Source: Pirellula sp. SH-Sr6A (GTDB taxonomy: Bacteria > Planctomycetota > Planctomycetia > Pirellulales > Pirellulaceae). From it: a DNA stretch of 64,000 nt. Below are positions 9,555-36,423 of the stretch, in pieces. The stretch spans positions 5,065,988 to 5,129,987 of the forward strand of contig NZ_CP011272.1 of NCBI RefSeq assembly GCF_001610875.1. The letters run 5' to 3'. The position numbers and the translations under genes are program-made. The notes below the pieces were generated by a model. The model ran no database searches and had not been told where the DNA came from. It saw nothing but the letters and a program-made list of their open reading frames with translations. How positions within the stretch are numbered: the stretch's first letter is position 1; each line of letters opens with the position of its first letter.

Positions 9555-10641
9555 CCAACGACATCAAATCATCTTTCGCCACTACTGCGGTCCTCGCGAG
9601 GGTAGACAAGACACGTTGAGCTTGGGTCGATTCCGTCTCAGCGATCGCGAATGGTCGGGCATGAAGCGACATGTGGAGCGGATACTCGAGGCACAGCGAT
9701 CGGAGGCTCCGATACCTCGATCTACCGCGGATTGGCTCAAATCGATTCCGCGGAAACAGTTCGAGTATTTGCAATCGCGCCTTCTCGAGAAGCAATCGAA
9801 TGGGTGCGAACCGGCTCAGCTTGCGCTAGCGGAATGGATCGACGAATACGAAGCAGCTCGGCAGGAGATGAACACGAGCGTCGCAACGGACGAAGCTGTG
9901 CTTCGCGACGTTCGCAAGCTGCTTCGCTGCGGCAACGACGTGAGTCGCATCGATGAGGGGTGTCTCTCCGATCTTATCGTCGACCTCGGTGAAGAGCATC
10001 ACTATGTCGAGAACACACTCGCTCGGCACGCGAAGCATTGGAACTTGTTCTTCGAATGGCTACGAACACGAAATCCGGACACGCTCGGCACAAATCCATG
10101 TGATGCACTGAATCGATCGATTGCCCCTCGCGAGAAAGATACCGTTCAATGGGAATGGATTGACCAATTGGTCGCGTCCTGCCGCACGACGGAGGAACGA
10201 TACTGGCTGAGGTTTGTTCAATGGACCGGCTGCAGGCTGCGCGAGGGGCTGACCCTGCGTGCGTGTGATGTCGAGTTGAATCGCAACCGAATCCTCCTGC
10301 AGGAGAGCAAGAACAACCGCGTTCGCATCAACCCGATCTACCCTGCAATTCGCGAGTATCTGCCCGATCTGCTCCGAGGGCTGGGCCCAGGCGATCGGGT
10401 GCTCTCGAGGATCACCGAGAACAACTGCTACGAATGGCTCTACGAATTACAAGATCGCGTGGGTGTCCCCAGATGGAAGCCTCCATATAACGCGTTTCGA
10501 GCGACTCGTGCGAACCAACTTGCTGCGGATCCGACCATCACCGAGCATCAGGCTGGATTGCTCCTCGGGCATTCTCCGGCCGTCGCTCGTCGAAACTACT
10601 TGTCGATCGACGATTCGCTACTCGAGAGGTTAGCGTCATGA
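9541..10641 (+). CDS. int: Tyrosine recombinase (integrase)
   Basis: A 366-residue protein of the phage-integrase family, which cuts and rejoins DNA through a tyrosine. The N-terminal part (about 80-180) fits the SAM-like core-binding domain (LALAEWIDEYEAARQEM). Catalytic elements: the first arginine in TGCRLREGLTLR, a beta-hairpin lysine region (LLQESKNNRVRIN), the second arginine in AFRATRANQL where the usual histidine is replaced, and LLGHSPAVARRNYLSID holding the last histidine and the nucleophilic tyrosine. It lies 3.3 kb from tRNA-Phe and far from the right-end integrase. A parS-like palindrome lies inside the gene at 9744. Confidence 0.88.
   Translation: MFCRDQRHQIIFRHYCGPREGRQDTLSLGRFRLSDREWSGMKRHVERILEAQRSEAPIPRSTADWLKSIPRKQFEYLQSRLLEKQSNGCEPAQLALAEWIDEYEAARQEMNTSVATDEAVLRDVRKLLRCGNDVSRIDEGCLSDLIVDLGEEHHYVENTLARHAKHWNLFFEWLRTRNPDTLGTNPCDALNRSIAPREKDTVQWEWIDQLVASCRTTEERYWLRFVQWTGCRLREGLTLRACDVELNRNRILLQESKNNRVRINPIYPAIREYLPDLLRGLGPGDRVLSRITENNCYEWLYELQDRVGVPRWKPPYNAFRATRANQLAADPTITEHQAGLLLGHSPAVARRNYLSIDDSLLERLAS
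9744..9757. repeat. parS-like palindrome, one mismatch
   Basis: GATTCCGCGGAAAC differs by one base from the perfect copies GTTTCCGCGGAAAC found at 25494, 34104 and 36410. It lies within the integrase coding sequence. It is the leftmost member of a six-site set confined to the element. Confidence 0.55.
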
Positions 10642-10907
10642 GCAAGACCCCGCGACAGAGAGCATTCGAGCGAGAGGATTCTGGCTGGCAGCCGGCGCTC
10701 GGAACGGTTGTGTTCGTGCGATCGAGGCAACGTCATCTTTCGCGAGTGTGCGGCAGAGGAACGGTAACAAACCAAAGTCTACTGATACGCGACTGTGTTG
10801 AGGTAACGATCAAGTCCGGAACGAGGGTTCGGACTGAAATCTGGTGTGTTGATGATCTACGCCCGGCGATGAGTCCGGGAGAGAAAATTTCTGGAGGTAA
10901 CGAATAA
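10638..10907 (+). CDS. Hypothetical small protein
   Basis: An 89-residue basic protein whose ATG overlaps the integrase stop (ATGA). The middle (LGTVVFVRSRQRHLSRVCGRGTVTNQSLLIRDCVEVTI) looks like a small beta-barrel. No recognised family. The coupling to the integrase gene suggests a helper or excision role, but the protein lacks an obvious helix-turn-helix as in typical excisionases. Confidence 0.6.
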   Translation: MSKTPRQRAFEREDSGWQPALGTVVFVRSRQRHLSRVCGRGTVTNQSLLIRDCVEVTIKSGTRVRTEIWCVDDLRPAMSPGEKISGGNE

Positions 10908-10908
10908 C

Positions 10909-11121
10909 ATGTCCACAATCACTTCCGACCGAATGGATCCACATCGGGTCGAGATCTATCTTTCCGCGCTGACGCACTCAGAGCTCAGCAAGCGAGCTCT
11001 ATCTCCCGTGGAGTCGCGATTCATCGCACGAATGCGATCGCAGCATCCGGATCATTGCCGACGACTCGACCGACAGGTGCAACGAGACTTAAAACGACGA
11101 AAGGTATCGCAGTCATGGTAG
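10909..11121 (+). CDS. Hypothetical small basic protein
   Basis: A 70-residue, arginine-rich protein starting two bases after the preceding stop, with GGAGGT upstream. The C-terminal half (ARMRSQHPDHCRRLDRQVQRDLKRRK) is strongly basic and helical and may bind nucleic acid. It overlaps the next gene by seven bases. No family recognised. Confidence 0.55.
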   Translation: MSTITSDRMDPHRVEIYLSALTHSELSKRALSPVESRFIARMRSQHPDHCRRLDRQVQRDLKRRKVSQSW

Positions 11122-11429
11122 CGATGGATCTCCCGAAGGAGGACTCACTCGACCAAAGGTTTGCTTTACTAAAACGAGCTTCCGTGGTCGTTCTTACGGT
11201 TGGAGCGGGAGATGACATCTCCACTACCACCGCAATTCAGCTGGGGGCAGCTGTGGCCTACGACAAGCCGATCGTCGCAATCGTTGATCAGGGCGTCAAG
11301 ATGCCAGCGAAGCTAGCCAAGCTGGTCGATGTAACGATTTACCGTGGGGACAATCCGCAGAAGTTGGCGGAAGCAATTACCACGGCCGTACTCGCGTTAT
11401 GCAAAGGAAATGCAAATGAAGAATGCTAG
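11115..11429 (+). CDS. Rossmann-like protein, possibly nucleoside 2-deoxyribosyltransferase-related
   Basis: From the ATG at 11115 the product has 104 residues. The core AIQLGAAVAYDKPIVAIVDQG after VVVLTVGAGDDIST recalls the nucleoside 2-deoxyribosyltransferase family, where a bound nucleotide sits beside a D-S/T-G-T-x-x-E-L-G motif; here the usual glutamate is replaced by glutamine, so activity is doubtful. A TIR-like fold is an alternative with a similar secondary structure. The start is uncertain (11124 is possible). The last 40 bases of the gene are found again, degenerated, at 11783. Confidence 0.5.
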   Translation: MVAMDLPKEDSLDQRFALLKRASVVVLTVGAGDDISTTTAIQLGAAVAYDKPIVAIVDQGVKMPAKLAKLVDVTIYRGDNPQKLAEAITTAVLALCKGNANEEC

Positions 11430-11733
11430 ATGCCAGACCATGGAGTCAATCTACTCGATTCTAAAAGAGATAACCTTCCGAAATCGGCAATTTAAGGTCC
11501 GCAAGAGAGGCGAAGGATTTCTGATGGAAGTCTGCCTCACTGCGATCGATCCGAAAATAGCCGAACCTCCGGAACGTTTCGGGCGCAAGTGGTATGTCTC
11601 GAAGTTCTCGACCAAAAGCGAAATTGTTCAGACGGCTTTGAAGGCTGTTTTGCATGCGATCGAGCACGATGCGAGAGAACAATTTAGATACCGAGGAGAA
11701 GCTATCTTTTCGTCTCAATTCGATGTCGACTAG
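11416..11733 (+). CDS. Hypothetical protein, first copy of a tandem pair
   Basis: A 105-residue protein with AAAGGAAA upstream. It is clearly related to the product of 11831: both share GRKW, a TKSEIVQTA stretch, an (A)E-H-(D/E)-A-R-E motif and end in a (Q/H)FDVD sequence. No known domain is recognised. It overlaps the end of the preceding gene by 14 bases. Duplicated small genes of this kind in phage early regions often inhibit host proteins, but nothing here shows that. Confidence 0.7.
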   Translation: MKNARCQTMESIYSILKEITFRNRQFKVRKRGEGFLMEVCLTAIDPKIAEPPERFGRKWYVSKFSTKSEIVQTALKAVLHAIEHDAREQFRYRGEAIFSSQFDVD

Positions 11734-11782
11734 CTAGTCGACGTAACGAACTAACGTTGCGATTATCCCACCAAGCTGGCCT

Positions 11783-11822
11783 AAGCAATTCGATCGGCCG
11801 TGCTCGCGCTACGCAAAGGAAA
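11783..11822 (+). pseudogene. Degenerate copy of the 3' end of the 11115 gene
   Basis: AAGCAATT ... CGGCCGT ... CTCGCG ... GCAAAGGAAA matches 11371-11410 at 33 of 40 positions. The original is the coding end of the Rossmann-like gene plus the ribosome site of the first paralogue. The copy lies at the same distance before the second paralogue, so it shows that the duplication unit included the end of the upstream gene. It now serves only as leader with the GGAAA ribosome site. Confidence 0.7.
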
Positions 11823-11830
11823 CATAAACG

Positions 11831-12211
11831 ATGCGAATCAAAATTCACAAATGGCATACCATAGAGTCACTCAAGATGGTTCTCAAAGAGGTGGCTTTCA
11901 AGGACTGGAAGTTCCGGGTTTGGCAGGTAGGCCAATCATTTCTAATACAAGTCTGCTTCGAGGCGATCGATTCGAAGACTTCCATTCCTGACACGCAGTT
12001 TGGACGCAAGTGGTTCATCGATAGGTATGCCACCAAGAGCGAAATCGTACAAACTGCTTTCAACGCGGTATTGACTGCACTCGAACACGAGGCAAGGGAG
12101 GATTTCAAGTATCGCGGTGCGAGAATCTTTGCCCCGCATTTCGACGTGGATTCACTCGTGCATGGCTGCATTGAGCTGGACGTTAGAACGCCGCCCGGAG
12201 TGACGGCCTAG
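11831..12211 (+). CDS. Hypothetical protein, second copy of a tandem pair
   Basis: A 126-residue paralogue of the 11416 product, about half identical over its length, with a 20-residue C-terminal extension (SLVHGCIELDVRTPPGV). Both copies keep an intact reading frame, which suggests that both are selected. The upstream 40 bases are the degenerate duplicate of the region before the first copy. Function unknown. Confidence 0.7.
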   Translation: MRIKIHKWHTIESLKMVLKEVAFKDWKFRVWQVGQSFLIQVCFEAIDSKTSIPDTQFGRKWFIDRYATKSEIVQTAFNAVLTALEHEAREDFKYRGARIFAPHFDVDSLVHGCIELDVRTPPGVTA

Positions 12212-12251
12212 CAGCTTTCTGCACGCGCGAACAAGAAAGGAAGCATCCGGA

Positions 12252-12851
12252 ATGATCGATGAACGAGTCAATCGAATTGCCCACGTGCTCTGGGCAGCCA
12301 ACACCGCTCCTATGTTGCGCATGGAGTTCTATTGCATCAAATCGATGCTTTGCCATCGCTTCGGCATCGAAGATGGATACGACGTGCAACGCATCGATCA
12401 CGAATGTTGGACGTGTGGAGGCGATGGCATATTTCATGGGTTTGACGCCGTCGTCGCCGATGAATGCTGGAAGTGCTGCGGCACTGGAGTATACAGCTCA
12501 CTATTCGTCGAACTGAAGCGATGGAAGCTAGGAAAACATGTGTTTCACGAGCCAATACGGCGACTCTCTAGAATCGAAGTACAGCCTCGCAATATCAACA
12601 TTCGAGGTAAGGTTCAGCATGCAAGATGCTCCTGGACACAATCTGCCAATGTGGCGATAGGCCGATTATTCGATCGGTCGTACTACTGGAACTGCATGGG
12701 CACATTGCCCGATCAACGCTTTGGATTGGCTCTCCGCCAATGTGAAGCACTCTGCAGATGGATATTCGGTGAAGATTGGAACCGAATGTATGTCAACGTC
12801 CCCGCAGCCATGACATGGCTTGAAGAGAGGGAGGTGATCATGAGCCCCTAG
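12252..12851 (+). CDS. Protein with a DnaJ-type CxxCxGxG zinc motif
   Basis: A 199-residue protein with AAGGAAG upstream. Two cysteine pairs, CWTCGGDG near residue 53 and CWKCCGTG near residue 73, are spaced as in the zinc-binding CxxCxGxG repeats of DnaJ-like cysteine-rich domains. The rest is unrecognised; a tryptophan- and arginine-rich C-terminal part ends in AAMTWLEEREV. Small phage proteins with this motif may be chaperone adaptors or nucleic-acid binders. Function unknown. Confidence 0.65.
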   Translation: MIDERVNRIAHVLWAANTAPMLRMEFYCIKSMLCHRFGIEDGYDVQRIDHECWTCGGDGIFHGFDAVVADECWKCCGTGVYSSLFVELKRWKLGKHVFHEPIRRLSRIEVQPRNINIRGKVQHARCSWTQSANVAIGRLFDRSYYWNCMGTLPDQRFGLALRQCEALCRWIFGEDWNRMYVNVPAAMTWLEEREVIMSP

Positions 12852-13195
12852 CGATCGATTTTCGCGACGATCAATCCGAATGAGCATTCCTCGCGTGTTC
12901 GAAAACGCCTGAGTGAGATCGCGGACTGTTCGGACAATTCGACTTCGGTGAACAACGGTGTTCGCAAAAACTGAGCTTCGGCTTGGACCGTTCGTTGTGC
13001 GCCACTGACTCAGGGATCTGTGATCTTTGAGACCGCTAGAGGCACGTCTCCACGTGCCGAGCATGCTACATCAAAAGTACTGTAAACCATAGTCTCAGTA
13101 GGACTATTGTTTCCAAGGATTAAGCGTTGCAAAAGTGCCGTTTTACAACGCGAGTTACAACACACCATCCCGACATGATGCCGGAGGTACAAACG
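12852..13195. promoter_or_regulatory. Intergenic region before the replication-type gene
   Basis: No convincing gene. It holds TAGTC TCAGTAG GACTA, and GTTGCAAAA mirrored by TTTTACAAC (8 of 9) followed by a further TTACAAC. These dyads lie 20-120 bases before the winged-helix protein and could be operators or initiator-binding sites. The position ahead of the replication gene makes it a candidate origin or control region. Confidence 0.4.
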
Positions 13196-14158
13196 ATGAA
13201 ACGAGCAAATCAGGAGCCGGACTACTCGCTCTTTGATCATCAATTTGGGAAAGCGCAGGACGAAGCTGCAAAACTGAGCGCAAGGCGGAAACTGCTCAGA
13301 ATGACTGAGGACGCATTGCGGTATCACAGGATCGGATTGAACACCGTTGCGGGAAAGATTCTGCGATTGGTAGCCAAAGTGGCTGGGCTGGAATCCCTCC
13401 ATCGTTCGCGAGAAGAATTGGCGACTGACGAAGATGTACTTTGCGAGAAGTCCTCGATACCGGCCGCTGTCCGTACCCTTCGCGATTTAGGTTTGCTCCG
13501 TAGGGGCATAACAACCGATGGTGGTTTGATTACAGGATTGACCATCCAGGTGAACTTCGATGAGATCCATTCCGCGAGCGAGAAATGGAACAAGTCGCAT
13601 CCCCAAGTTTCCGAGGTTTGGGAGGCTCGCGCTACGGGTGGCGCCACCGGTAGCGCTACGGGTAGCGCTACGGTATCAACACCCGTATCAACACCCGTAG
13701 CGCCGACGGCAGACACTATATATCCCTCTATCCCTAATTCCCCCTCCTCCCCTGGGAGCTTCGAGGAGGTGGAGGTGGAACTTACAAAACTCGATATCGG
13801 ACAGGCGAAGCAGGCTGTCGAATCAGCGCGACAACGAGGGTGCGATCCGAATCATATTCAAGCGTTGATCGAGCACTACCACAAGCTTCTAAAAGAGAAC
13901 CCTCGTCGCTGGGATAGCCCGCTGTATGCTTTGTTCGCTCGGGTCTCTGCTGCTTCGCCAAAGATTCCCATCGAGCGTGGTTGGCTGTCAGCTCGACACA
14001 ATCCACAGGACACCAGCCAGGCTTACCGCAAAGCCGCTCGGGAAGATCTACGATCAAAGATTCAAGTGGCTCCCGAACAACGAGCCACCGGCTTCAACGA
14101 TGAAGAACGCCAACTGATCGCGAGCTTTGGCCGTCGAACCCGCGACGCGCCCAGCTAA
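13196..14158 (+). CDS. Replication-initiation-like winged-helix protein
   Basis: From the ATG at 13196 (GGAGG 9 bases upstream) the product has 320 residues. Residues about 40-120 fit a winged-helix domain (AGKILRLVAKVAGLES, SSIPAAVRTLRDLGLLRRGI), as in phage replication protein O and plasmid initiators. A low-complexity linker follows in which GAT/SAT and VSTP units repeat at protein and DNA level (GGTAGCGCTACG repeated). The C-terminal part (QAKQAVESARQRGCDPNHIQALIEHYHKL) is helical. It precedes the ParB-like gene. A role in replication is inferred from fold and position. Confidence 0.55.
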   Translation: MKRANQEPDYSLFDHQFGKAQDEAAKLSARRKLLRMTEDALRYHRIGLNTVAGKILRLVAKVAGLESLHRSREELATDEDVLCEKSSIPAAVRTLRDLGLLRRGITTDGGLITGLTIQVNFDEIHSASEKWNKSHPQVSEVWEARATGGATGSATGSATVSTPVSTPVAPTADTIYPSIPNSPSSPGSFEEVEVELTKLDIGQAKQAVESARQRGCDPNHIQALIEHYHKLLKENPRRWDSPLYALFARVSAASPKIPIERGWLSARHNPQDTSQAYRKAAREDLRSKIQVAPEQRATGFNDEERQLIASFGRRTRDAPS

Positions 14159-14180
14159 GTACTCCACATTTCGTCTCATC

Positions 14181-14213
14181 AAAAAAGGGCCGTGAGACTT
14201 CACCTCACGACCC
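14181..14213 (-). terminator. Minus-strand intrinsic terminator between two plus-strand genes
   Basis: On the minus strand GGGTCGTGAG pairs with CTCACGGCCC (one mismatch) followed by TTTTTT. There is no T-run on the plus strand. Both neighbours are transcribed from the plus strand, so the element points to an antisense transcript that is stopped here. Confidence 0.45.
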
Positions 14214-14242
14214 CATGGCATCCCCGAAAGGACAATTGAACT

Positions 14243-15928
14243 ATGGCATCCACAACAGCAAAACGCAAGACAACCAAGCCGATCAAAAACAAAAGCACCG
14301 AACCAAAGTGGGAGGAAGTTTCCGGATCCGAACAGCTGCGCGAGCTCGCCCATGCGAATGAAATCCACGACATACCGTTGTCGAAGATCCGGCCGCACGC
14401 GAACAACCGCAAGCTTTGGAATGACAACTCGATCGACGAGCTCGCCGAGTCGATCCACGAGCTCGGACAGCTGGAGCCAGCGACCGTGCGAGCTACGAAT
14501 GATTCAAAGTACCCCTACGAACTGTTAAGTGGCGAGCGACGATTTCGAGCGTTGGGAAAGCTTGGCAAAACATCAATCAGAGCGACGATCGTTTCCGAGG
14601 AAACGCCGGACGCCTTGGTACGCATGGCAGCCGCAAACAGCAACCGGCGTGATCTCGATCCTATTGAACGGGCAGAGCTCATCGTCCTGCTCATGCAACC
14701 CATCGAACAAGGCGGCTCCGGACTCAATAGACTTGCCGCCGGCAAGGCCGTCGGGTTTCAAAGTGAGAGCGGAACGAAGAACGCACTCCGTATGCTTCGG
14801 CTTCCAAAGTCGATTCGTGATATGGTCAAGAACGGAAAGCTAAGTGAACGAGCTGCCAGGAAGTTGATTCCGTTCGTCGACCATGACGAATTCATGAGCG
14901 AGATCGAGTCTGAGTTACGGGACGACGATTCAAGGGCTGATCTCATCGCAGAAGAGGGATGGCCCTATTGGCTCGAGCGACTGTTCGATCAACACACACG
15001 ACCTATGGACGAGCGCGAAAGATCGACGGGGAATCTAGTCCAGGGGTACTGGGGCCATCACAAGATGCTATTCACTCCAACCGAGGAGCAAATGGTGCAG
15101 CTGGTTCCGGCGACATTCAGCGACAACGGCGAGAAGATGGTCGTCACATTCAACTGCGACCTGTGGGACGAACTACAAAAGCCTCTTGTAAAGAGAATCT
15201 TCGAGAAGCGAAACCGACTTCCCAATGGCAAGGTGTCTGCGGGCGATATCGAGAAGCCGCTGTCATCAGAGGACAAAGCTGCCGAAGAGAGCTCAAAGCG
15301 CATTGAAGCAAATAAACGCCTCAAGGACTACTCCGCAAAGTGGGGGTCGATGGCTCTCCGGCTTCAATTGACTCACAGTGCCCTCGGAGCGGACATGATG
15401 ACAACGTTTCCATTCCTTCTCCGGGCTTACCTTCAGTCCAATCGATTCGACCATCTCGCAGATTGGTCGTTCGCGGAATGCGATATCGAAACTAAGCCTA
15501 TCAAAGGTGCTTGGGGACCACCGGCGAAGATGCCAATAACCGCGAACACCACAACGATCGTGTCGATGTGGCGGCTGATGCTTTGGCCGGTGAGTTCGAA
15601 AGAACGATCTCCTGAAGGCCTTTCGGCAAAGGGGGAACTTCCGGACCTTGAGAAGCTTCCGCACATTCAAGATCATTTGGTGAAGGCACTCGCCAAGCGA
15701 TGCTCCGTAGGCATGATTGATTTCTGGCGAGAGGCCCAACAAGAGCAAGGACCGCAGAAGCAACTCCTGGGAGTATGGCTCGGCCGACATACCACAGAAC
15801 AGTTGCTGAAGCTGTGCACCGAACTAAAGCTCCAACCGTCGGTCTCCAAGAAATCGGAACTTGTGGAATTCGTTTTGCGATCGCATGATTCAAAGAAATC
15901 GCTCTCGATTCCAAAGGCAATCGCATGA
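14243..15928 (+). CDS. ParB/Spo0J-like DNA-binding protein (phage type)
   Basis: A 561-residue protein. The N-terminal ParB (CTPase) domain is clear: IHDIPLSKIRPHANNRK, DELAESIHELGQLEPATVR, the nucleotide-binding GERRFRAL near residue 96 and NSNRRDLDPIERAELI. A helix-turn-helix follows (AAGKAVGFQSESGTKNALRML). The C-terminal 300 residues are unlike chromosomal ParB. There is no ParA gene nearby, so it may condense or mark the element DNA or regulate transcription rather than segregate it. Six parS-like palindromes occur in the element, one of them (14591) inside this gene. Confidence 0.82.
   Translation: MASTTAKRKTTKPIKNKSTEPKWEEVSGSEQLRELAHANEIHDIPLSKIRPHANNRKLWNDNSIDELAESIHELGQLEPATVRATNDSKYPYELLSGERRFRALGKLGKTSIRATIVSEETPDALVRMAAANSNRRDLDPIERAELIVLLMQPIEQGGSGLNRLAAGKAVGFQSESGTKNALRMLRLPKSIRDMVKNGKLSERAARKLIPFVDHDEFMSEIESELRDDDSRADLIAEEGWPYWLERLFDQHTRPMDERERSTGNLVQGYWGHHKMLFTPTEEQMVQLVPATFSDNGEKMVVTFNCDLWDELQKPLVKRIFEKRNRLPNGKVSAGDIEKPLSSEDKAAEESSKRIEANKRLKDYSAKWGSMALRLQLTHSALGADMMTTFPFLLRAYLQSNRFDHLADWSFAECDIETKPIKGAWGPPAKMPITANTTTIVSMWRLMLWPVSSKERSPEGLSAKGELPDLEKLPHIQDHLVKALAKRCSVGMIDFWREAQQEQGPQKQLLGVWLGRHTTEQLLKLCTELKLQPSVSKKSELVEFVLRSHDSKKSLSIPKAIA
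14591..14604. repeat. parS-like palindrome inside parB, one mismatch
   Basis: GTTTCCGAGGAAAC; it differs from the perfect palindrome only at a central base. It lies in the ParB coding sequence, a common place for a cognate parS site. Confidence 0.6.
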
Positions 15929-16116
15929 TGCAACGGATTCGAATGCTATATCACGTTCCTGCGAAGCGAGGCGGAAGAGTACTCTACACAGGCGGACTTG
16001 GAGGACCACGGTATGGGACCATCAAGTCCGCAAGGGGCGGCTACATTCGCATTCTGTTGGATGGTGACAAGTGGGCTGGCTGCTACCATCCGACGTGGAA
16101 GCTGACGTATCTTTGA
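15925..16116 (+). CDS. Small hypothetical protein
   Basis: A 63-residue protein whose ATG overlaps the parB stop (ATGATG). It is rich in glycine, arginine and tyrosine (VPAKRGGRVLYTGGLGGPRYG) and looks like a small beta-structured protein. The overlap suggests coupled translation with the ParB-like protein. No family recognised. Confidence 0.55.
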   Translation: MMQRIRMLYHVPAKRGGRVLYTGGLGGPRYGTIKSARGGYIRILLDGDKWAGCYHPTWKLTYL

Positions 16117-16137
16117 GTCGATGCGGCAACTGAGCAC

Positions 16138-16401
16138 TTAAAGATTCTTATTCCCGTCGAGTGCTTCTTCTACTCGTTGCTTCCATTCAGACTTCGGAAA
16201 GCTACGCGCGTACAAGAACGCAATTAGCTCACCAATTCCAAACCCGCCACGGCAATTCCCTTCTATTAAGGCTTGCTGTGGCTGGAACACGTGCGAGTAG
16301 ACTTCGTACGCTGCCATGTGCACCGGGTCTCCTATCGTCGAGCGCTCGTTTCGCCTTGGAACGGGTTGCACTGGTCGGTCGAGTATCTCTCGTGGCATCA
16401 T
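16138..16401 (-). CDS. Hypothetical small protein
   Basis: An 87-residue reading frame starting 14 bases after the stop of the membrane protein upstream. It has a natural-looking composition (HMAAYEVYSHVFQPQQALIEG, IGELIAFLYARSFPKSEWKQRVEEALDG), while the in-frame extension upstream is arginine/serine-rich and looks like the shadow of the other gene. It ends convergently with the parB operon. No clear ribosome site and no recognised family. Confidence 0.45.
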   Translation of the reverse strand: MMPREILDRPVQPVPRRNERSTIGDPVHMAAYEVYSHVFQPQQALIEGNCRGGFGIGELIAFLYARSFPKSEWKQRVEEALDGNKNL

Positions 16402-16414
16402 TGCTTGCTGACGG

Positions 16415-16816: not shown

Positions 16817-16892
16817 GACAACTCCATTAAATGCAAACAAAAGCTTCTGGTACTGAAAGCGACAACGAAATCACCAACCAAACATGCGATGA

Positions 16893-17033: not shown

Positions 17034-17127
17034 ATTCTTGGTCATCCTTCGAACAAAATGAACTGGGTGGTCTATTGATTACTTTTGGGCAATTCATCCC
17101 TTTCCAACTCAGCAATCTCTATAGTTC

Positions 17128-17436: not shown

Positions 17437-17438
17437 TA

Positions 17439-28431: not shown

Positions 28432-28432
28432 C

Positions 28433-29584: not shown

Positions 29585-29991
29585 TGTTTGCATCACCGAC
29601 GATTCCTACGAATCCCGAGTCTTTGCTGATCGCGAAAGAGTTGCTCGATTCCAGCAATTCGACACTCGCTAACCTCGCCAAGTTCAGACGGGAGCAGTTC
29701 CAACGGTTCTGGTACCAATCGCGCCAACAGCTTCGGACGCGACAGGATGTTAACGAGATTCTCTCTCAAATGGACGCGGCATCGCCCGGTCAATCTGCTC
29801 GGTTTTTTGCAAGTGCGAAGGCACTAGTGGACCTCATCGAAGCCATTTCGGGCGAACCGATGGAGCCTGAAGAATGGATGCCTCCTTATGAATACACGAT
29901 TGATCCGGAGACTTATTCACTCCGAATGACGATCCCGCCTGAACCCGAGTCCGAGCCTGAGCCCGAGCCTGAAGCTGAACCCAACGAGTAA
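29584..29991 (+). CDS. Hypothetical protein with acidic proline-rich tail
   Basis: A 135-residue protein from the ATG that overlaps the preceding stop (TAATG); an ATG 12 bases earlier is possible. The body is helical (LAKFRREQFQRFWYQSRQQLRTRQDVNEILSQM) and the end is a run of Pro-Glu units (EPESEPEPEPEAEPNE). It sits between the beta-helix gene and another unknown, and may be a chaperone or accessory protein for the fibre block. No family recognised. Confidence 0.6.
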   Translation: MFASPTIPTNPESLLIAKELLDSSNSTLANLAKFRREQFQRFWYQSRQQLRTRQDVNEILSQMDAASPGQSARFFASAKALVDLIEAISGEPMEPEEWMPPYEYTIDPETYSLRMTIPPEPESEPEPEPEAEPNE

Positions 29992-30014
29992 ACGCTATAC
30001 CTACCGAGGAAACC

Positions 30015-30938
30015 ATGTCAGAAGTTCGTTCCGCATTGCCTTACATTTCGCACCTTCGCGTGACCAAGCGCCCCACGATCAAGTGGGAGCCTATCGGCTA
30101 CGACGCTCAAAACGGTGAGGATCTTTACCGCCAGGGGGTCGATCTCCCCGGCATCGAGTGCGAAGTGACGCCCTACATGGGAAGCGTGAAGGGGCCAGCC
30201 GCAACGTATCGATTCCCCCTGAAGGCCTTCTTCGAGGCGAACTTGGCCAAGCTGCAAGCCAAGCCGCAGAAGAACGACCAGGACAACGCTGCGATTGCCA
30301 ACTTGCAAGCTACGATCGCCAATCCGGAGACGATTTGGGCCGAGTCGATTCTGCTCGCCGGAGGCCTCCCAACGCTCACCGCATTGTGGCAAGACGTGTT
30401 TAGCGACGCGCTCGACGAGTTCACGGAGTGGAGCGAACCCGAAGTAGCGGCCGGTGGAATCCCACTCTACGTGCGCGAGATGCAATGGGACGCTCGCATC
30501 CCCTACGAGTCTGCCAAGTCGATCACCCTTAAAGTGGGCCTGTTCGATACCGAACAGGAGGAAGGCGCTCCTGCGTTGTACACGCTCAGTTTCGAGGACG
30601 CCGCGACGCGGGCCCAACGCGAGGCCTACAACGCGCAGCTCGTTCAACGCATCACGCAGCTGACGGCCGCGATCGCGGGACTTCCTGAAGGTCCAAGCGA
30701 GACGCGAACGCAAATGGAACAGGAGCTCGCTGGATACCAAGCCGAAAAGGCCCAACGCGACGCAGTCGAGAACGGACTCATGAGCGATCTACTATCCAAC
30801 GCGTCCGTGCAGCAATCGCTCCCGACGTTGCTGGTGGCGATCCTCGGTGCATTGAAAGCCGTCTATTGGCCCGACCTCGACATGCAGATGGTGCAAGAGC
30901 GACTGGCCGAAACGCTCGGAGAGTTGGCAGCCGCGTAA
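30015..30938 (+). CDS. Hypothetical protein of the fibre block
   Basis: A 307-residue protein with GAGGAAACC directly before its ATG. The first 120 residues contain beta-type sequence and a helical segment (FEANLAKLQAKPQKNDQDNAAIANLQATI); residues about 200-245 form a coiled coil (AYNAQLVQRITQLTAAIAGL, ETRTQMEQELAGYQAEKAQRD). Coiled coils with beta domains are frequent in trimeric virion proteins. No family recognised; role in the particle is inferred from place. Confidence 0.65.
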   Translation: MSEVRSALPYISHLRVTKRPTIKWEPIGYDAQNGEDLYRQGVDLPGIECEVTPYMGSVKGPAATYRFPLKAFFEANLAKLQAKPQKNDQDNAAIANLQATIANPETIWAESILLAGGLPTLTALWQDVFSDALDEFTEWSEPEVAAGGIPLYVREMQWDARIPYESAKSITLKVGLFDTEQEEGAPALYTLSFEDAATRAQREAYNAQLVQRITQLTAAIAGLPEGPSETRTQMEQELAGYQAEKAQRDAVENGLMSDLLSNASVQQSLPTLLVAILGALKAVYWPDLDMQMVQERLAETLGELAAA

Positions 30939-30971
30939 AAAACTTCTCTTCACAACAAATAGTTGGCAGCG

Positions 30972-31547
30972 ATGGAAACACTCACTTTTACCGCACAATC
31001 TGGTGTCCTGGACTTCTACGTTCTCCCTGAAGGCTCCTCGCTTGCCGCGTGGGACACCAACGCGGAGTATCCGATAGAAGGTGAGAGCGGGCATTACAGC
31101 GTGGAAGTCGATCCCAGCATTGCTACGGTGTGGAGGTTGTTTCGTGGATCAACTCAACCTTCATCCTGGAACGATTGGCTTGAGGTATTTCGTATCCAAT
31201 CGATTGCGGTGCTACCGACCCAAGGTATGGACGACAGGGATTACTCTGTTGCAACAATCCAGGCGAGCGTAGACGCGGATCTTTCGATAGCCAGAACAGT
31301 CCGCGATGCCGCTAACGAACCAGTTCTCTTACCAACTTGCGACTTCGTATTATGCGACAAGAACCAGAAGCACCTCGCAACGATCCCGCCCACGATCTCG
31401 GGCGCTAGCTACACGGTTCAGGTGCCACGATCGCTGACCAAGTTGGAACGAACGATCTTCTTTGCACTGAGGATTCGCGACAGCTCGAACCTTGATTTGG
31501 ATCGAGGCACAATCCAGTTTGTCTACGCGGCGACCGCGCCGGTTTAG
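30972..31547 (+). CDS. Hypothetical beta-rich protein
   Basis: A 191-residue protein (TTG at 30963 is an alternative start). The sequence alternates beta strands (METLTFTAQSGVLDFYVLPEG, YTVQVPRSLTKLERTIFFALRIRD, TIQFVYAA) and may form two small barrels or Ig-like domains, as in capsid decoration or fibre-linked proteins. The stop codon lies within the promoter-like block that precedes the capsid gene. No family recognised. Confidence 0.6.
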   Translation: METLTFTAQSGVLDFYVLPEGSSLAAWDTNAEYPIEGESGHYSVEVDPSIATVWRLFRGSTQPSSWNDWLEVFRIQSIAVLPTQGMDDRDYSVATIQASVDADLSIARTVRDAANEPVLLPTCDFVLCDKNQKHLATIPPTISGASYTVQVPRSLTKLERTIFFALRIRDSSNLDLDRGTIQFVYAATAPV

Positions 31548-31582
31548 GTACTTTGCAACCGTAAATTTTGTGCCTGTATATT
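31542..31582 (+). promoter_or_regulatory. Candidate late promoter, copy 2 (capsid)
   Basis: GTTTAGGTAC, then TTGCAA (31553-31558) and TATATT (31577-31582) with an 18-base spacer. Upstream block and both hexamers match the copy at 19567. It overlaps the end of the preceding gene and starts the 165-base leader of the capsid gene. Confidence 0.6.
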
Positions 31583-31747
31583 GTCCCCGGAATTTGCCCA
31601 GTGACTCTCACGGGCCAGACGTCTAGACGCTGGCACGTTGGACTATCTCACTTTTGCCAGCGTTCATACGCGACGGTGGGCAGCAATCGCAGCCGGTAAG
31701 GCTTGCACCGTCAATTCATAGTGGGTCCGACATTCCGAGGTAAGACA
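31583..31747 (+). promoter_or_regulatory. Structured leader of the capsid gene
   Basis: Non-coding. ACGCTGGCA (31627-31635) and TGCCAGCGT (31655-31663) form a perfect 9 bp stem with a 19-base loop. GAGGTAAG lies before the capsid ATG. The hairpin has no T-run and could stabilise the abundant capsid mRNA. Confidence 0.45.
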
Positions 31748-33223
31748 ATGAGTGTAATTGCAGAGAAGCGTAAGAAGGCTGCTGAGCTTGCGGCAGAGAT
31801 CAAGAAACAAGGCTCGGCGTATAACGAGCGAAAAAAGGCTTCCGAGAAAGATCCAGCAGTCAGTCTCTGGCCTGATGAAACGCGATCCGCGTGGGATAAG
31901 GTCAACGCCGAATACGATTCCTTGAAGAATGAACTGAAGTCGCTCGAGGATGACGAGTCGATCAATAACCGCATCACCGAGATCAACGAGTGGGAAGGAC
32001 GTTCGACTCAACACGGAAAACAAAAGCCTGGACTCGATGACACCAACCCGGCCACCGGTCGAGCTTACGGTGAGGATTTCGAGGATCGCGAGGAGGCTCG
32101 TGCTTTTGCTCAACGTCAAGCGGACCAGCGGCAGTTCATGCGGGCCTTCATCGTCTCGCACATCAATCCCGATCTGATTGATCGCGATATGCGTTCGGCG
32201 TGCCAGCGACTCGAAGTAGAACCTAGCCGTCCATCCATCCGTTGCCAATTGCTCGACACCGAAAAGCACAAACGGCTTCAACGGGCTGCAAGGCTCACAA
32301 ACCACGCCCTTCTTGAAGATCGGCTCGAAGAAGAACACCGGAGCATGAGCAAGGGTGGGGTCGGGACCGGTTCTGAATTGGTCCCAATCACCTTCATCAA
32401 TTCGATTGAATTGGCGATGTTGGCAACGAGTCCATTCTTCGCATATGTGGATTTGATGCGAACCGAAACGGGCGAGGAGATCAAGTGGCCGATTGGTGAT
32501 GACACAGCGAACGAAGGGACTCAGATCAACGAGGCCCAGGACATCAACGCGCTGGCTCAACCAGATGCCGTCCTACAGCAACTCTCTCTAAAAGCCTACG
32601 ACTTCACCTCGAACTTCATCAAGGTTTCCGAACAACTCAGTCGTGATTCCCTGCCCCGAATTGATCTGATTGTGGGGAGCATGATTGGAGAGAGACTAGG
32701 ACGCATCAAGTTGCGTCGCGCAACGTTGGGCAACGGAACCACCCAGCCAGGAGGGGTCGTGACACAGGCTGCAGCTGGAGTAACGGCCGCACTCGCCGCC
32801 GCCATTGGCGCAGACGACACGGTCAAACTGCAGCATGCTGTGGATCCAACGTATCGAGGGAATGGCATGTACATGGCCCACGATATTGTGATTCAAGCTT
32901 TGCGGCTGCTGAAGGATACCCAAGGCCGATATCTTTGGGCATCCGGATTGAAGGATGGAGTCCCAGACACTCTGAACGGCCAAGCGATCATTTACAACCA
33001 GTACATGGCTAGTACGATCGCTACCACACAAATAACGATGCTCTACGGAGACTTCCGATACTACAAGGTTCGAGAAGTCGGGAACATCGTTATCAAGAAG
33101 CTCATTGAACGCTTCGCGGAGACAATGCAAGTTGGGTTCATGGGGTACCAGGCCATGGATGGACGATTGCAGCGCTGGACCGCTGACGCCCCATGCCCAG
33201 TGAAGAAGCTCACCCAAGCTTAA
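31748..33223 (+). CDS. Major capsid protein (HK97 fold)
   Basis: From the ATG at 31748 (GAGGTAAGACA upstream) the product has 491 residues. The N-terminal 120 residues are a charged helical scaffold arm (KRKKAAELAAEIKKQGSAYNERKKASEKD, YDSLKNELKSLED), removed by the protease in this family. The mature part shows HK97-type blocks: GTGSELVPITFINSIEL, SNFIKVSEQLSRDSLPRIDLIVGSMIGERLGRIKLRRATLGNGT and LYGDFRYYKVREVGNIVIKKLIERFAE. It has its own promoter-like block and leader, consistent with high expression. Confidence 0.92.
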   Translation: MSVIAEKRKKAAELAAEIKKQGSAYNERKKASEKDPAVSLWPDETRSAWDKVNAEYDSLKNELKSLEDDESINNRITEINEWEGRSTQHGKQKPGLDDTNPATGRAYGEDFEDREEARAFAQRQADQRQFMRAFIVSHINPDLIDRDMRSACQRLEVEPSRPSIRCQLLDTEKHKRLQRAARLTNHALLEDRLEEEHRSMSKGGVGTGSELVPITFINSIELAMLATSPFFAYVDLMRTETGEEIKWPIGDDTANEGTQINEAQDINALAQPDAVLQQLSLKAYDFTSNFIKVSEQLSRDSLPRIDLIVGSMIGERLGRIKLRRATLGNGTTQPGGVVTQAAAGVTAALAAAIGADDTVKLQHAVDPTYRGNGMYMAHDIVIQALRLLKDTQGRYLWASGLKDGVPDTLNGQAIIYNQYMASTIATTQITMLYGDFRYYKVREVGNIVIKKLIERFAETMQVGFMGYQAMDGRLQRWTADAPCPVKKLTQA

Positions 33224-33299
33224 TCATCGTTTGCGTTTCAAGTCTCCCTTCGTGCTCGATCGACTCGCCCCGATCGAGCATTTTCTAGGATCAATCTTT

Positions 33300-33647
33300 A
33301 TGGCTCATGTGATTGTGCTCGCATCGTTGGGTGGGACCGATTTTACCATCATCCCCAACCAACTTTTGGAATGTACCGACGAGGAAGCTGAAAGGCTTGT
33401 TGACTCGGGTCAGGCCCGTCGACTACTCAAATCCGAACCGACTGAATTGCAGTTGGAAACGGTCTTTCGACTGCCAGTAACGGTGGCGATTGAAGAACCT
33501 GGCTCGGAACGGACCGACGAGTCCGACCTAGAAACCGAATCGTCCGAAGACGGTGGAGACTCGAACTCGGACGATGAAGTCAATTCGAAACTCGAATCGG
33601 AAACACAACCATCACAGCCATCCAATGGACGTCGCCGAAGGAACTAA
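33300..33647 (+). CDS. Hypothetical acidic protein
   Basis: From the ATG at 33300 (AGGA 8 bases upstream) the product has 115 residues. The first half is beta-like (HVIVLASLGGTDFTIIPNQL, CTDEEAERLVDSGQARRL), resembling small head-completion or decoration proteins placed after capsid genes. The second half is an acidic Ser/Glu/Asp-rich tail (TDESDLETESSEDGGDSNS) ending in RRRRN. Function unknown. Confidence 0.65.
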   Translation: MAHVIVLASLGGTDFTIIPNQLLECTDEEAERLVDSGQARRLLKSEPTELQLETVFRLPVTVAIEEPGSERTDESDLETESSEDGGDSNSDDEVNSKLESETQPSQPSNGRRRRN

Positions 33648-33652
33648 CGTGT

Positions 33653-34060
33653 TTGCTGGATCCGGAGGACTTGGAAGAAGAGTCCTTCGGAGACATCTAC
33701 CTCAGTTGGTTCGATCTCTCGAAGCGATTTCGACGTGACTTCACCATCGAATTGCTTCGGTCCCCGATCGCGAGAGCCAAGCCAAGGCTCGGGGTTATGG
33801 AGTTGGAATGCGATCACCACCTCCTCGCCACAGCATCTAGACGATGGGTGTTGTTCAGCTTCGCAACGAAGCGATTGTTTCGAGACCTTTGGATGTACAG
33901 GGAAGCCTACGAATGCGCATCGCGAGAATTTCCGAAAACACGTTTTGGGTGGTCACTCCCGAACGTGTTAGACGCAATTCGCGAATTCCCGATACAACCG
34001 AAGACGATTGGATCATCGAAGCAATCGAATCAGCCCACGAATACATCGAGGAGTATTTAG
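33653..34060 (+). CDS. Doubtful reading frame before the head-tail connector
   Basis: A 135-residue frame from TTG, six bases after the preceding stop. The first 85 residues (EESFGDIYLSWFDLSKRFRRDFTIELL) look protein-like, but the frame overlaps the connector gene by more than 140 bases, which is unusual in this compact operon. It may be real, an N-terminal remnant, or a shadow; kept at low confidence because 33648-33843 otherwise has no gene. Confidence 0.25.
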   Translation: MLDPEDLEEESFGDIYLSWFDLSKRFRRDFTIELLRSPIARAKPRLGVMELECDHHLLATASRRWVLFSFATKRLFRDLWMYREAYECASREFPKTRFGWSLPNVLDAIREFPIQPKTIGSSKQSNQPTNTSRSI

Positions 34061-34515
34061 GATGTTGCATCGCGATGGCAGATTATCGGATGACGCTCGA
34101 TCGGTTTCCGCGGAAACGAGGATCGATCGATCTGCCCGTATGGCCTGTAAAAGAGGTTGCGAGCGTGCAGTATGTGGATCCGACCGGTGCCGTGCAGTCG
34201 ATCGAACTCGACAAGATAGTACAACCGGCGGACAACGGCCGATTCAGCCTCCGACTCAAGGACCATGAGTGCTTCCCAAGTACTCGAGCTACCCCAAACG
34301 CGGTGAGCATTACCTTCACTGCGGGTTGGAGCGAGGTTGAAAAAGTACCCAAAACGTTGACGCGAGCTGCTCTGATGCTCACTTCGCACTGGTACGAAAA
34401 CCGCGAGACCGTGCTCATTGGAACGATCTCGAAAGAGATTGAACACGGAACCGTCGCAATGCTCGAGCAATTGAGACCCGCGGAAGACTACACGGCCGGA
34501 GAGGTGTGCGAATGA
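33844..34515 (+). CDS. Head-tail connector (gp6 / phiE125 gp8-like)
   Basis: A 223-residue protein (an ATG at 33913 would give 200). DDWIIEAIESAHEYIEEYLGCCI is the helical block typical of this connector family, followed by LDRFPRKRGSIDLPVWPVKEVASVQYVDPTGAVQSI, the conserved P-V-x-x-V-x-S-V-x-Y pattern. It joins the portal ring to the tail. It ends in an ATGA overlap with the next connector gene. A perfect parS-like palindrome lies at 34104. Confidence 0.85.
   Translation: MGVVQLRNEAIVSRPLDVQGSLRMRIARISENTFWVVTPERVRRNSRIPDTTEDDWIIEAIESAHEYIEEYLGCCIAMADYRMTLDRFPRKRGSIDLPVWPVKEVASVQYVDPTGAVQSIELDKIVQPADNGRFSLRLKDHECFPSTRATPNAVSITFTAGWSEVEKVPKTLTRAALMLTSHWYENRETVLIGTISKEIEHGTVAMLEQLRPAEDYTAGEVCE
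34104..34117. repeat. parS-like palindrome, perfect
   Basis: GTTTCCGCGGAAAC within the head-tail connector gene, encoding FPRKR in that frame. Same 14 bases as at 25494 and 36410. Confidence 0.65.
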
Positions 34516-34832
34516 GGGCGGGTAGGCTTCGCCATCGAATCACGATACAGCGACGTGAACAAAACTACGATGACTTAGGTCACGAACAAGGGGACTGGAA
34601 AACAATCGCCTCTGGGCACCCTGCGTTGGTCGAAGATCTTAGCGGGCGCGAACTCGAACGATATCGTCAGATCGTTGCTGAAGTGACGACGAGAATTACC
34701 ACCCGACGAAGCGCAGCCAACTTTAAAGACCGCATTCTGTTTCGCGGACGGATCTTGAACGTGTTGTCCCAGACTTATAACGAGATCGAAACCGAGCAAG
34801 AGATACTCTGTGCGGAGGTCCTGCAAGGATGA
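34512..34832 (+). CDS. Head-tail joining protein
   Basis: From the ATG at 34512 the product has 106 residues. RLRHRITIQRREQNYDDLGHEQGDWKTIA is the start pattern of phage head-tail joining (stopper) proteins, and VTTRITTRRSAANFKDRILFRGRILNVLS fits the following beta barrel. It closes the head and binds the tail. Coupled by four-base overlaps on both sides. Confidence 0.85.
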   Translation: MRAGRLRHRITIQRREQNYDDLGHEQGDWKTIASGHPALVEDLSGRELERYRQIVAEVTTRITTRRSAANFKDRILFRGRILNVLSQTYNEIETEQEILCAEVLQG

Positions 34833-35233
34833 GCCACGCGACCCTACCCGACCTCATCCGCGAACGATTGAAATCGATTCCCGAGATTCACCAGAAGATT
34901 GCGGGGAGAATCCATTACCAACAGATTCCCCAATCATCGACCTATCCGCATATATGGTTCGCTCGCCGAGGATCGAACACCGATGACCTCATGGACAGCG
35001 ATGGGATTCTGAGGGATCGATATGTGGTCGAGATCGTAACCAAAACATTCGATGACCAATTGGTCACTGCCGTGATTGATGCACTTCAATTCGATGGAAT
35101 CGCACTACCTTCCATGACCGTCGCAACGAGCGACCTCGACGAGGTAGATGACGAATATGCGTTTGAATCCGGCAACGGTGATTCCGCCCTTTGTATGCAC
35201 GCATTCGTGCTAACGCTTTATGTAGGTGACTAA
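34829..35233 (+). CDS. Tail completion protein (DUF3168-like)
   Basis: A 134-residue protein. LPDLIRERLKSIPEIHQKIAGRIHYQQIPQSSTYPHIWF is close to the pattern of the DUF3168/tail-completion family, which caps the tail tube at its head-proximal end. The position between head-tail joining and tail tube genes is the usual one. It overlaps the preceding gene by four bases. Confidence 0.78.
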   Translation: MSHATLPDLIRERLKSIPEIHQKIAGRIHYQQIPQSSTYPHIWFARRGSNTDDLMDSDGILRDRYVVEIVTKTFDDQLVTAVIDALQFDGIALPSMTVATSDLDEVDDEYAFESGNGDSALCMHAFVLTLYVGD

Positions 35234-35695
35234 ATGCCAAAGAAGAAGAAGCTTGGAGCAGGAACGCGGGTCTCGATTAATGGAGTAGTCTTTGAGTTCT
35301 TCGAGGAGTTCACACCTCCAGAGCGTTCGCGGGGACTTACGGATGTCACCACCATGGAGGACGATGCTGTCGACTCTCTCGACCATGACCCACCAGACTA
35401 CGGTAGTTTAAAACTGGTCGGTATGTACGACCCCGACGATGCGGGCGATAAAGCAATCGAAGACTTCTTTGACAATGACGACATCAACGAACGCGAGGCG
35501 ACGATCGTTGTCTCGTACCGTCGAACCGGAACAGGAACTGCCCCCGCGGCGTCTACCTGGACCTACAACACCATCACTTATACCTGCCGAATCAACAAGA
35601 TTGCGCCAAGTGGCGTCAAACGCACCGAAGGTATCAAGGTGGAAATCGAAGCGAAGGTTACCGCGAAACCGGTACGCGCAACTACTGGGGTTTAA
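35234..35695 (+). CDS. Major tail (tube) protein
   Basis: A 153-residue protein directly after the completion gene. The sequence is beta-rich, acidic in the middle (DVTTMEDDAVDSLDHDPPDYGSLKLVGMYDPDD) and ends with IEAKVTAKPVRATTGV, as in small siphophage tube proteins. It is the expected gene at this place, before the tail chaperone and tape measure. The C-terminal Ig-like extension of some relatives is missing. Confidence 0.75.
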   Translation: MPKKKKLGAGTRVSINGVVFEFFEEFTPPERSRGLTDVTTMEDDAVDSLDHDPPDYGSLKLVGMYDPDDAGDKAIEDFFDNDDINEREATIVVSYRRTGTGTAPAASTWTYNTITYTCRINKIAPSGVKRTEGIKVEIEAKVTAKPVRATTGV

Positions 35696-35715
35696 TTTCA
35701 CACTTCAACCAACAC

Positions 35716-36276
35716 TTGAAAGCCATGGATTACCTAACCAAACTTCGACAGAACCGCGAAACCGCCGTCCGAGCAAATCCGGTGGCGGTACCTGAGCTGC
35801 AACATTTGTTCAAGCCGGGTGAGCCAACGCTCTTCTATATCGCGACCTTGACCGCCGTTGAAAAGGATCGAATGGATGACGCTTATTCGTCGTTCTTGAA
35901 ACGCAACGAGATCTCAGACAAGGACTCCCGAGACCTGTATCGATCCTTCGTCGTGGCATATTGCCTGTGCGATGATAAGAACGAACGGAGTGCGACCGAT
36001 GACGACACACTCGACCAGTTGGTCTCCTATGTCGCGGAGACCGGTAACAAAATCATCGGCCGATTGTTCACAGTCTGCAACGGCGCGAATCGAATCTACG
36101 GTCTCGATGAGGAATTAAAAAAAAGCACCGTAGCGGGAGCCCCGCAGGCGAAGAGCGAAGATGGCAGTGGCGAACAGCCCTCTACCTCGGCTTCCCGTCG
36201 CGGACCGCGTGGCTCAGCTGCATCAGTGCAGCCGAATACGCAGAGCTCCGAGACCTCTGTCAGCTCGAGTTCCTAG
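35716..36276 (+). CDS. Tail assembly chaperone (G-type product)
   Basis: A 186-residue product from TTG at 35716, or 183 from the ATG at 35725. DYLTKLRQNRETAVRANPVAVPELQHLFKPGE and LSFATL-like ATLTAVEKDRMDDAYSSFLKRNE are seen in chaperones that coat the tape measure. Beyond a run of eight A (36117-36124) the zero-frame continues for about 50 low-complexity residues (QSSETSVSSSS) and stops. The same RNA encodes a -1 frameshift product with a better C-terminal domain, as in lambda G/GT. Confidence 0.85.
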   Translation: MKAMDYLTKLRQNRETAVRANPVAVPELQHLFKPGEPTLFYIATLTAVEKDRMDDAYSSFLKRNEISDKDSRDLYRSFVVAYCLCDDKNERSATDDDTLDQLVSYVAETGNKIIGRLFTVCNGANRIYGLDEELKKSTVAGAPQAKSEDGSGEQPSTSASRRGPRGSAASVQPNTQSSETSVSSSS

Positions 36277-36410
36277 GACTCGATCGACTGGATCTGCATG
36301 CGGCGTCCATATCGCCGCTCGGGCTGGAGCCATCGCAGTTTCAGTATGAGGCTACCCCCGAGGCCTCCGACGATGACTTCGATGATATCTGCGAGGCTTC
36401 AGGGATTTAG
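36117..36410 (+). CDS. -1 frameshift extension of the tail chaperone (GT-type)
   Basis: Zero-frame codons GAA TTA AAA AAA AGC cover the heptamer A AAA AAA (36117-36123). After a -1 slip the frame reads on for 95 codons to TAG at 36408-36410, giving protein-like sequence: WQWRTALYLGFPSRTAWLS, SAAEYAELRDLCQLEFLGLD, then an acidic end DDDFDDICEASGI. It has no start codon of its own, so it is made only as a fusion to the chaperone. This matches the conserved G/GT frameshift of long-tailed phages. Confidence 0.85.
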   Translation, partial: KKKHRSGSPAGEERRWQWRTALYLGFPSRTAWLSCISAAEYAELRDLCQLEFLGLDRLDLHAASISPLGLEPSQFQYEATPEASDDDFDDICEASGI

Positions 36411-36423
36411 TTTCCGCGGAAAC
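36410..36423. repeat. parS-like palindrome, perfect, at the frameshift stop
   Basis: GTTTCCGCGGAAAC; its first G is the last base of the TAG that ends the frameshift product, and it lies in the gap before the gp10-like gene. Confidence 0.65.

Follow-up and report, generated by a model that had tools for sequence, protein, structure and literature searches.

We analyzed a window of 64,000 nucleotides from Pirellula sp. SH-Sr6A (contig NZ_CP011272.1, positions 5,065,988 to 5,129,987 of the forward strand; coordinates below are those of the window unless stated otherwise), in which an integrated tailed phage encodes a ParB protein and carries six copies of a parS-like palindrome. Besides ParB, the element encodes a DNA methyltransferase, the small and large terminase subunits, a portal protein, a prohead protease, a major capsid protein, a head-tail connector and a tape measure protein. 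Two integrase-like proteins, encoded at 9541-10641 and 42532-43395, both fell under the Pfam cut-off. The prophage is taken to be bounded by 48 bp of tRNA-Phe on the left and 57 bp of tRNA-Leu on the right, and its main features are as follows.

6178..43576, + strand: prophage with the ParB system, its ends placed from the shared tRNA ends; the alignment with a sister prophage in the same genome starts at 7255
14243..15928, + strand: parB, encoding a 561-amino-acid ParB with Pfam matches over the cut-off
9744..9757, no strand: parS-like site GATTCCGCGGAAAC, one mismatch, in the integrase-like open reading frame (ORF) 9541-10641; kept in the sister prophage
14591..14604, no strand: parS-like site GTTTCCGAGGAAAC, a perfect GTTTCC-NN-GGAAAC dyad with one mismatch to the palindrome, inside parB
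20661..20674, no strand: parS-like site GATTCCGCGGAAAC, one mismatch, in the ORF of a trypsin-like peptidase, 19704-20951
25494..25507, no strand: exact site in the portal gene, 24270-25847
34104..34117, no strand: exact site in the head-tail connector gene, 33844-34515
36410..36423, no strand: exact site in a small ORF, 36298-36585, without a Pfam match
18573-19349: DNA methyltransferase, within the prophage

The first-pass annotation, made from the sequence alone, had described three exact and three one-mismatch copies of the palindrome GTTTCCGCGGAAAC, and our scan of the window found all six of its coordinates to be right, including that of the site within parB. With up to two mismatches allowed, the window contained six matches in all, compared with a mean of 0.46 after shuffling, and none of 100 shuffles reached six, so that the number of sites exceeds chance as had been proposed. 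The 26.6 kb of host flank within the window held no match, again as described. The six sites cover 27 kb of the 37-kb phage, with successive gaps of 2.3-8.6 kb. By our ORF calls, all six are intragenic, use three reading frames and encode different peptides, which rules out coding constraint as the annotation had argued; its supporting point that one site lies at a stop codon did not stand, since each of the six is inside an ORF.

Across elements, the central two bases of the palindrome vary and GTTTCC and GGAAAC are constant, giving the motif GTTTCC-NN-GGAAAC. A fixed CGCG centre or a restriction-type motif was rejected because of this variation. The earlier idea that the centre ACGT of parS had changed to CGCG was likewise incorrect, and the constant difference from parS (GTTTCA-CG-TGAAAC) is at base 6, where A is replaced by C. 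Sites of ParB (parS) and of its relative Noc (the Noc-binding site, NBS) differ at bases 1 and 6, which are G and A in parS and A and C in NBS (PMC7383237). Base 1 is G in all six window sites, which sets them apart from the Noc-type ATTTCC-NN-GGAAAT. GTTTCC-NN-GGAAAC is a natural parS/NBS hybrid, with a parS-like G1 and a Noc-like C6.

The window ParB contains a ParB_N domain (residues 40-126) and an HTH_ParB domain (137-216), both over the cut-offs of their Pfam models, followed by a long C-terminal extension. This extension ends in a helical module that is, by eye, common to about 22 of 28 aligned relatives and for which Pfam gives only sub-threshold hints. The nearest solved structures by sequence are Noc and then Spo0J. 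An AlphaFold2 model had a mean predicted local distance difference test score (pLDDT) of 77 and a predicted template modeling score of 0.48, with residues 1-29 at a pLDDT below 50; its best Foldseek matches were ParB, Noc and KorB over about 200 aligned columns, with template modeling scores by target of at most 0.71 and often a large root-mean-square deviation. With residue numbers transferred by motif, the cytidine triphosphate (CTP)-box positions equal to R60, E102, R103, R104, N136 and R139 are kept, as is GERRFRA; two others, considered below, are changed.

We searched for a ParA partner as PF13614, the one ParA-type family covered. None of the nine PF13614 matches of the genome lies inside either prophage, none was found on the ParB contigs of genomes G002, G078, G055, G081 and G100, and none occurred in 16 virus records encoding a ParB of this type; these records may be fragments, and 14 of them contain an integrase. 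A GGxGK[ST] motif was absent from all six frames of the window, and Walker-type motifs present in 4 of 11 elements were judged by eye to be unrelated. Within the scope of these searches, the description of this ParB as solitary was borne out.

Sites and ParB in related elements

The window's genome is a single contig of 6.53 Mb, in which the palindrome occurs with at most one mismatch at 13 places: six in the window prophage, six in the sister prophage and one elsewhere. A reversed control pattern occurs at one place in the whole genome. The sister prophage lies at 4.148-4.175 Mb in the opposite orientation and is not an independent case, because it is 84-95% identical to the window prophage in aligned parts and keeps all six sites. 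The motif GTTTCCNNGGAAAC occurs ten times in this genome, eight of them within the two prophages; the canonical host parS 16-mer was found nowhere in the genome within one mismatch, and there is one isolated perfect GTTTCANNTGAAAC. Equal density of the palindrome in host chromosomes had been set beforehand as a refutation of a phage-specific system, and was not seen: seven exact copies, one each in seven genomes, were present among 59 further genomes drawn from the genus, family and order of the host.

In a scan of 16 genomes for GTTTCCNNGGAAAC, every copy was on the contig encoding the ParB relative in G078 (7/7, with a ParB only 28% identical to that of the window), G055 (2/2) and G002 (1/1). 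The corresponding fractions were 1/2 in G044, 1/2 in G147 and 1/4 in G033, and no copy was found in G383, G100, G088 or G258, though each has a ParB relative. When all perfect 6-NN-6 dyads were ranked, GTTTCC came first in the window phage, with four copies against 0.002 expected. It also came first in G078 (seven copies) and G055 (two), which were found by ParB alone, as well as in G414 (four), G415 (five), G416 (two), G417 (two), G418 (four), G420 (four) and G426 (six), the last two counted for the scanned part; these seven elements had been selected by the exact palindrome, and one of them, G418, is almost the same phage as that of the window. Single GTTTCC dyads were present on the ParB contigs of G002, G044, G033 and G147, and none in the ParB-found G383, G088, G258, G169 and G388. 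Two further elements found by ParB alone had other leading classes, ATTTCC in G081 (four) and ATTTCG in G100 (three), and ATTTCC sites are also present in the L224 element.

Genome G081 is an internal control. Its contig C231 carries three GTTTCACGTGAAAC within 100 bp beside ParA and ParB, the classical arrangement, and contig C119 encodes a phage-type ParB with the Noc combination of residues (Q173, K184 and R201) together with five copies of the Noc site, ATTTCCNNGGAAAT. Three more copies of ATTTCCNNGGAAAT are on C390, and a further five are distributed over as many other contigs. Canonical parS thus accompanies chromosomal parAB, and ATTTCC accompanies the phage ParB, in one genome.

Viral sequences in IMG/VR were approached from the site and from the protein. 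We analyzed 50 of the 74 records with an exact palindrome. At least two GTTTCCNNGGAAAC were present in 8 of the 50, and a ParB domain was encoded by 6 of these 8 (that of G416 below the Pfam cut-off) compared with 5 of 42 single-site records (Fisher p=0.0007); the two multi-site records without ParB are fragments of 16 kb and 7.5 kb. Approached by ParB similarity, 79 further loci were drawn from the best 80 of 377 relatives, and with parB unmasked TTTC-core dyads recurred within the locus in 10 of them, other cores at spacer 2 doing so in at most three. We then scored all 16 XTTTCY classes with a threshold of 15, using 16 control cores for comparison. The threshold was reached by 16 of 90 ParB-chosen elements (7 of 11 genome elements and 9 of 79 IMG/VR loci, one of the latter a near copy of the G081 element), by 7 of 8 palindrome-chosen elements and by the window, and each control core reached it in 0 or 1 of 99. 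Masking parB left 5 of the 79 IMG/VR loci and 6 of the 11 genome elements above the threshold, and each of 14 control cores passed in at most 1 of 98.

The cleanest test of ParB-site pairing is provided by a second phage ParB family, marked by a GHSR box and a cysteine cluster. Of 63 loci found by ParB, 56 remained after six palindrome-chosen loci and one seen earlier were dropped, some of the 56 being closely related. Among all perfect 6-NN-6 dyads in these loci with parB masked, GTTTCC was the commonest half-site (16 copies in 12 loci), followed by GTTTCG (8 in 2), GTTTCT (6 in 4) and a fourth with five copies. Pairing between ParB and site is therefore strongly supported at the sequence level, and from this co-occurrence we infer that the prophage's own ParB reads GTTTCC-NN-GGAAAC. 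At the level of sequence, these comparisons support the proposal that ParB and parS form a phage pair of separate specificity, since the sites co-occur with divergent ParBs, differ by ParB group and are mostly confined to phages.

Several other repeats were seen in ParB loci. The second-family loci L326, L329 and L327 contain four GTTTCG or three GTTTCT dyads, and GTTTCG and GTTTCT possibly represent further site classes. We have no explanation for dispersed, repeated dyads of GTTTGC (L235), ATTACG (L265, one copy in parB) and CGTCGA (L244 and G078), and a spacer-0 dyad, CGGCGA, recurs in 5 of 79 loci, equal to ATTTCG at spacer 2. Dyads of CTGCGC, CGGCGG, TGATTA and GTTTTG were set aside as short clustered repeats. 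Short palindromic repeat arrays lie up to about 1.3 kb upstream of phage parB at L250:8614-8711, L229:3012-3130 and L230:5841-5902, and are perhaps clustered sites of other ParBs.

Bases 1 and 6 and the ParB residues proposed to read them

In Caulobacter ParB and Noc, R173 reads G1, Q173 reads A1, and R201 reads C6 given a lysine at 179 or 184 (PMC7383237). Both R201 and R184 are present in the window ParB, in agreement with the published determinants of C6. Site class and residue also varied together across 29 elements: Q173 was present in 14 of 14 elements with A1 and in 2 of 15 others (G044 and G169; p=1.8e-6), and R or K201 in 10 of 18 elements with C6 and in 0 of 11 others (p=0.0035). Two elements, G426 and G423, hold more than one ParB-like protein, and the partner for this test was picked by us. 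Because sites within parB overlap codons of the conserved ISxEI motif in several ATTTC-class elements, an observation that itself weighs against the pairing, we repeated the association tests with parB masked. The association of base 1 with residue 173 held (p=0.0001-0.0004).

A number of observations weigh against a dedicated ParB-site pair or against the residues proposed to read it. With parB masked, the association of base 6 with residue 201 dropped to a trend (p=0.05-0.25), and the base-1 association is partly a clade difference. At position 173 the window ParB has E, next to an insertion of one residue, and not the R expected for G1. Residue 201 is not a general key, because GTTTCC in the second family goes with G or N at this position in 12 of 12 loci, and a universal residue-201 code was rejected once that family had been analyzed. 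Site and protein also part company in places: 37 of the 42 single-site records checked have one palindrome without ParB, of the 79 relatives that make up the first IMG/VR set, 70 fell below the threshold for such sites, and G005, G009, G018, G025 and G049, chosen for an exact palindrome, hold one to three copies of GTTTCCNNGGAAAC on different contigs, which is background. Finally, the positions of catalytic Q58 and E135 (numbers again transferred by motif) are N and A in the window ParB. Alanine at these positions in the Caulobacter protein allows CTP binding but not hydrolysis, with premature closing and defective DNA entrapment (PMC8367383), and the clamp cycle of the window ParB may differ from that of Caulobacter, with a clamp that may be long-lived or may load in another way.

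Spacing of the sites and the possible role of the ParB

For nine elements that have three or more sites, the gaps are more regular than expected for random placement between the outer sites, by pooled coefficient of variation (p=0.0002) and by a smallest-gap test (p=0.003), both post hoc. Sites within parB were found in 7 of 13 elements against 2.2 expected (p=0.002), and for the GTTTCC class in 5 of 10 against 1.6 (p=0.01), post hoc results that are a hint. The phage of G002 has counterparts of the window phage's terminase (61%), portal (57%) and capsid (56%), and three sites with at most one mismatch. One of these is 2.5 kb ahead of the terminase genes, and the other two immediately precede the aligned start of the portal and the connector, respectively, unlike the portal and connector sites of the window, which are well inside those genes. 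In this single comparison sites persist at changed positions, and they are fewer and more degenerate.

We conclude that this is a ParA-less phage ParB-parS system that has its own specificity and, by analogy with characterized systems, most likely loads sliding clamps over phage DNA, and we regard it as probable that the solitary prophage ParB recognizes its own parS-like dyad, loading clamps that would build a phage-wide nucleoprotein. The ParB would recognize GTTTCC-NN-GGAAAC at about six dispersed sites of the prophage, bind CTP there, shut into a clamp and then slide away from the site, as ParB, Noc and KorB do; for the window ParB, binding, clamp, sliding and role are all inferred. When Caulobacter ParB was expressed in Escherichia coli, its observed spread around parS was about 5 kb, and that of a clamp-locked mutant about 26 kb overall (PMC8367383). 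With such a reach and gaps of 2.3-8.6 kb, most of the phage would be covered, and clamps loaded at sites about 2-9 kb apart could coat most of its DNA. The resulting nucleoprotein most likely tunes prophage transcription or organizes phage DNA.

Condensation, packaging and late-gene control, the uses proposed in the first-pass annotation, are not separated from one another by the sequence evidence. Control of the kind exerted by KorB or VirB, in which CTP-bound ParB would slide out from scattered sites and silence or anti-silence promoters of the prophage, and maybe also those of an incoming related phage as immunity, is a serious possibility that we place somewhat short of even. RK2 KorB acts on promoters far from its operators, which it represses by sliding in a CTP-dependent manner (PMC11790492). 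The Foldseek matches of the window model include KorB structures, the sites are dispersed and mostly intragenic, and most of the virus records with a ParB of this type encode an integrase. We think it rather unlikely that the ParB serves packaging or condensation, with ParB-coated DNA, or a link to host structural maintenance of chromosomes (SMC) complexes, organizing replicated phage DNA for packaging. ParB recruits SMC, and the sites spread across the genome, including late genes, but in the window no cluster lies near the terminase genes. Bacterial ParB is stated to be able to condense DNA in the same report in which KorB-CTP did not condense DNA in vitro (PMC11790492).

Segregation of the ParA type is unlikely because no ParA was found, and partition of an extrachromosomal phase in any form, using host ParA or none, seems improbable to us. 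ParB belongs to a partition family, host ParAs exist, and in some hosts ParB-parS is said to be all that is used for segregation (PMC10286716); set against this, the prophage is integrated and has integrase-like genes, its sites are dispersed rather than clustered, PF13614 was found in none of the 16 virus records, which may be fragments, and the N-terminus of the window ParB, judged by eye, lacks the ParA-binding motif described in PMC12704722. It is less probable still that another protein, such as a repressor, a host ParB or the methyltransferase that the phage also encodes (18573-19349), reads the palindrome with the phage ParB as a bystander. Among phages that are otherwise unrelated, the class of site goes with the ParB; the sites have the same TTTC/GAAA core and 2-bp spacer as parS and NBS; and outside the prophages, copies on the host chromosome do not form a cluster.

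Known ParB systems and other observations

Among known systems, Noc-NBS of Bacillus resembles that of the window in that a ParB relative acts without ParA, with R201 and C at base 6, and Noc provides the nearest solved structures. Noc-NBS, like the window system, has several sites along a replicon, and Noc has a membrane-binding amphipathic N-terminus. The window system differs in base 1 (G rather than A), in residue 173 (E rather than Q), in being phage-borne and in its long extra C-terminal region. With chromosomal ParB-parS it shares the fold, the helix-turn-helix, the TTTC-4-GAAA dyad core and G at base 1, and it departs from it in C at base 6, a free central 2 bp, the lack of a detected ParA and sites along the element instead of near the origin. 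KorB-OB of plasmid RK2 likewise pairs a ParB-type protein with a mobile element and acts from distant sites, but KorB has KorA as its partner and the OB site sequence differs from that of the window. The phage-plasmids N15 (SopB, with four sites, IR1-4) and P1 also encode ParB-type proteins; these are plasmid prophages that carry SopA or ParA, whereas the window prophage is integrated and no ParA was found. The staphylococcal phage Lacachita and its relatives have an orphan ParB without ParA, as in the window, but no integrase, and the accessible part of that report describes no sites (PMC10286716).

Phage ParBs without ParA are reported to be frequent. We found no paper that gives them sites or a job in the accessible parts of the open-access literature, preprints excluded; one report states that, to its authors' knowledge, no phage with ParB alone has been characterized (PMC10286716), and no site analysis was seen in the accessible part of a 2025 survey of the ParB fold (PMC12704722). 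ParB or Noc with dyad sites is known, and the form described here is phage-borne, has no detected ParA and has spread private sites. Candidate sites are available from sequence for several phages together, so that function could be tested by removing or relocating them. These natural sites, the hybrid GTTTCC among them, lie within the parS-to-NBS landscape mapped by mutagenesis (Jalal et al. 2020), and phage sites could provide new orthogonal ParB-site pairs. More broadly, we tentatively suggest, at a little under an even chance, that many integrating phages across several ParB families use a ParA-less ParB and evenly spaced private sites to build a CTP-driven phage chromatin that marks and controls phage DNA, with divergence at bases 1 and 6 avoiding cross-talk with host and co-resident phage systems.

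The tRNA ends are exchanged between the sister prophages (window 6152-6225 and 43520-43576; L005 and L007). The window prophage has an intact tRNA-Phe on the left and the 57-bp tRNA-Leu end on the right, and its sister has tRNA-Leu and the 48-bp tRNA-Phe end; this exchange and the opposite orientations are consistent with recombination between the two prophages that inverted a large part of the chromosome. A gene with a lipid desaturase domain (PF10520) also lies within the window phage, at 20939-21439. Two other loci of the genome, G000:C1:1940281-1941386 and 5935958-5937054, each encode two adjacent small ParB-fold proteins of about 292-300 amino acids.

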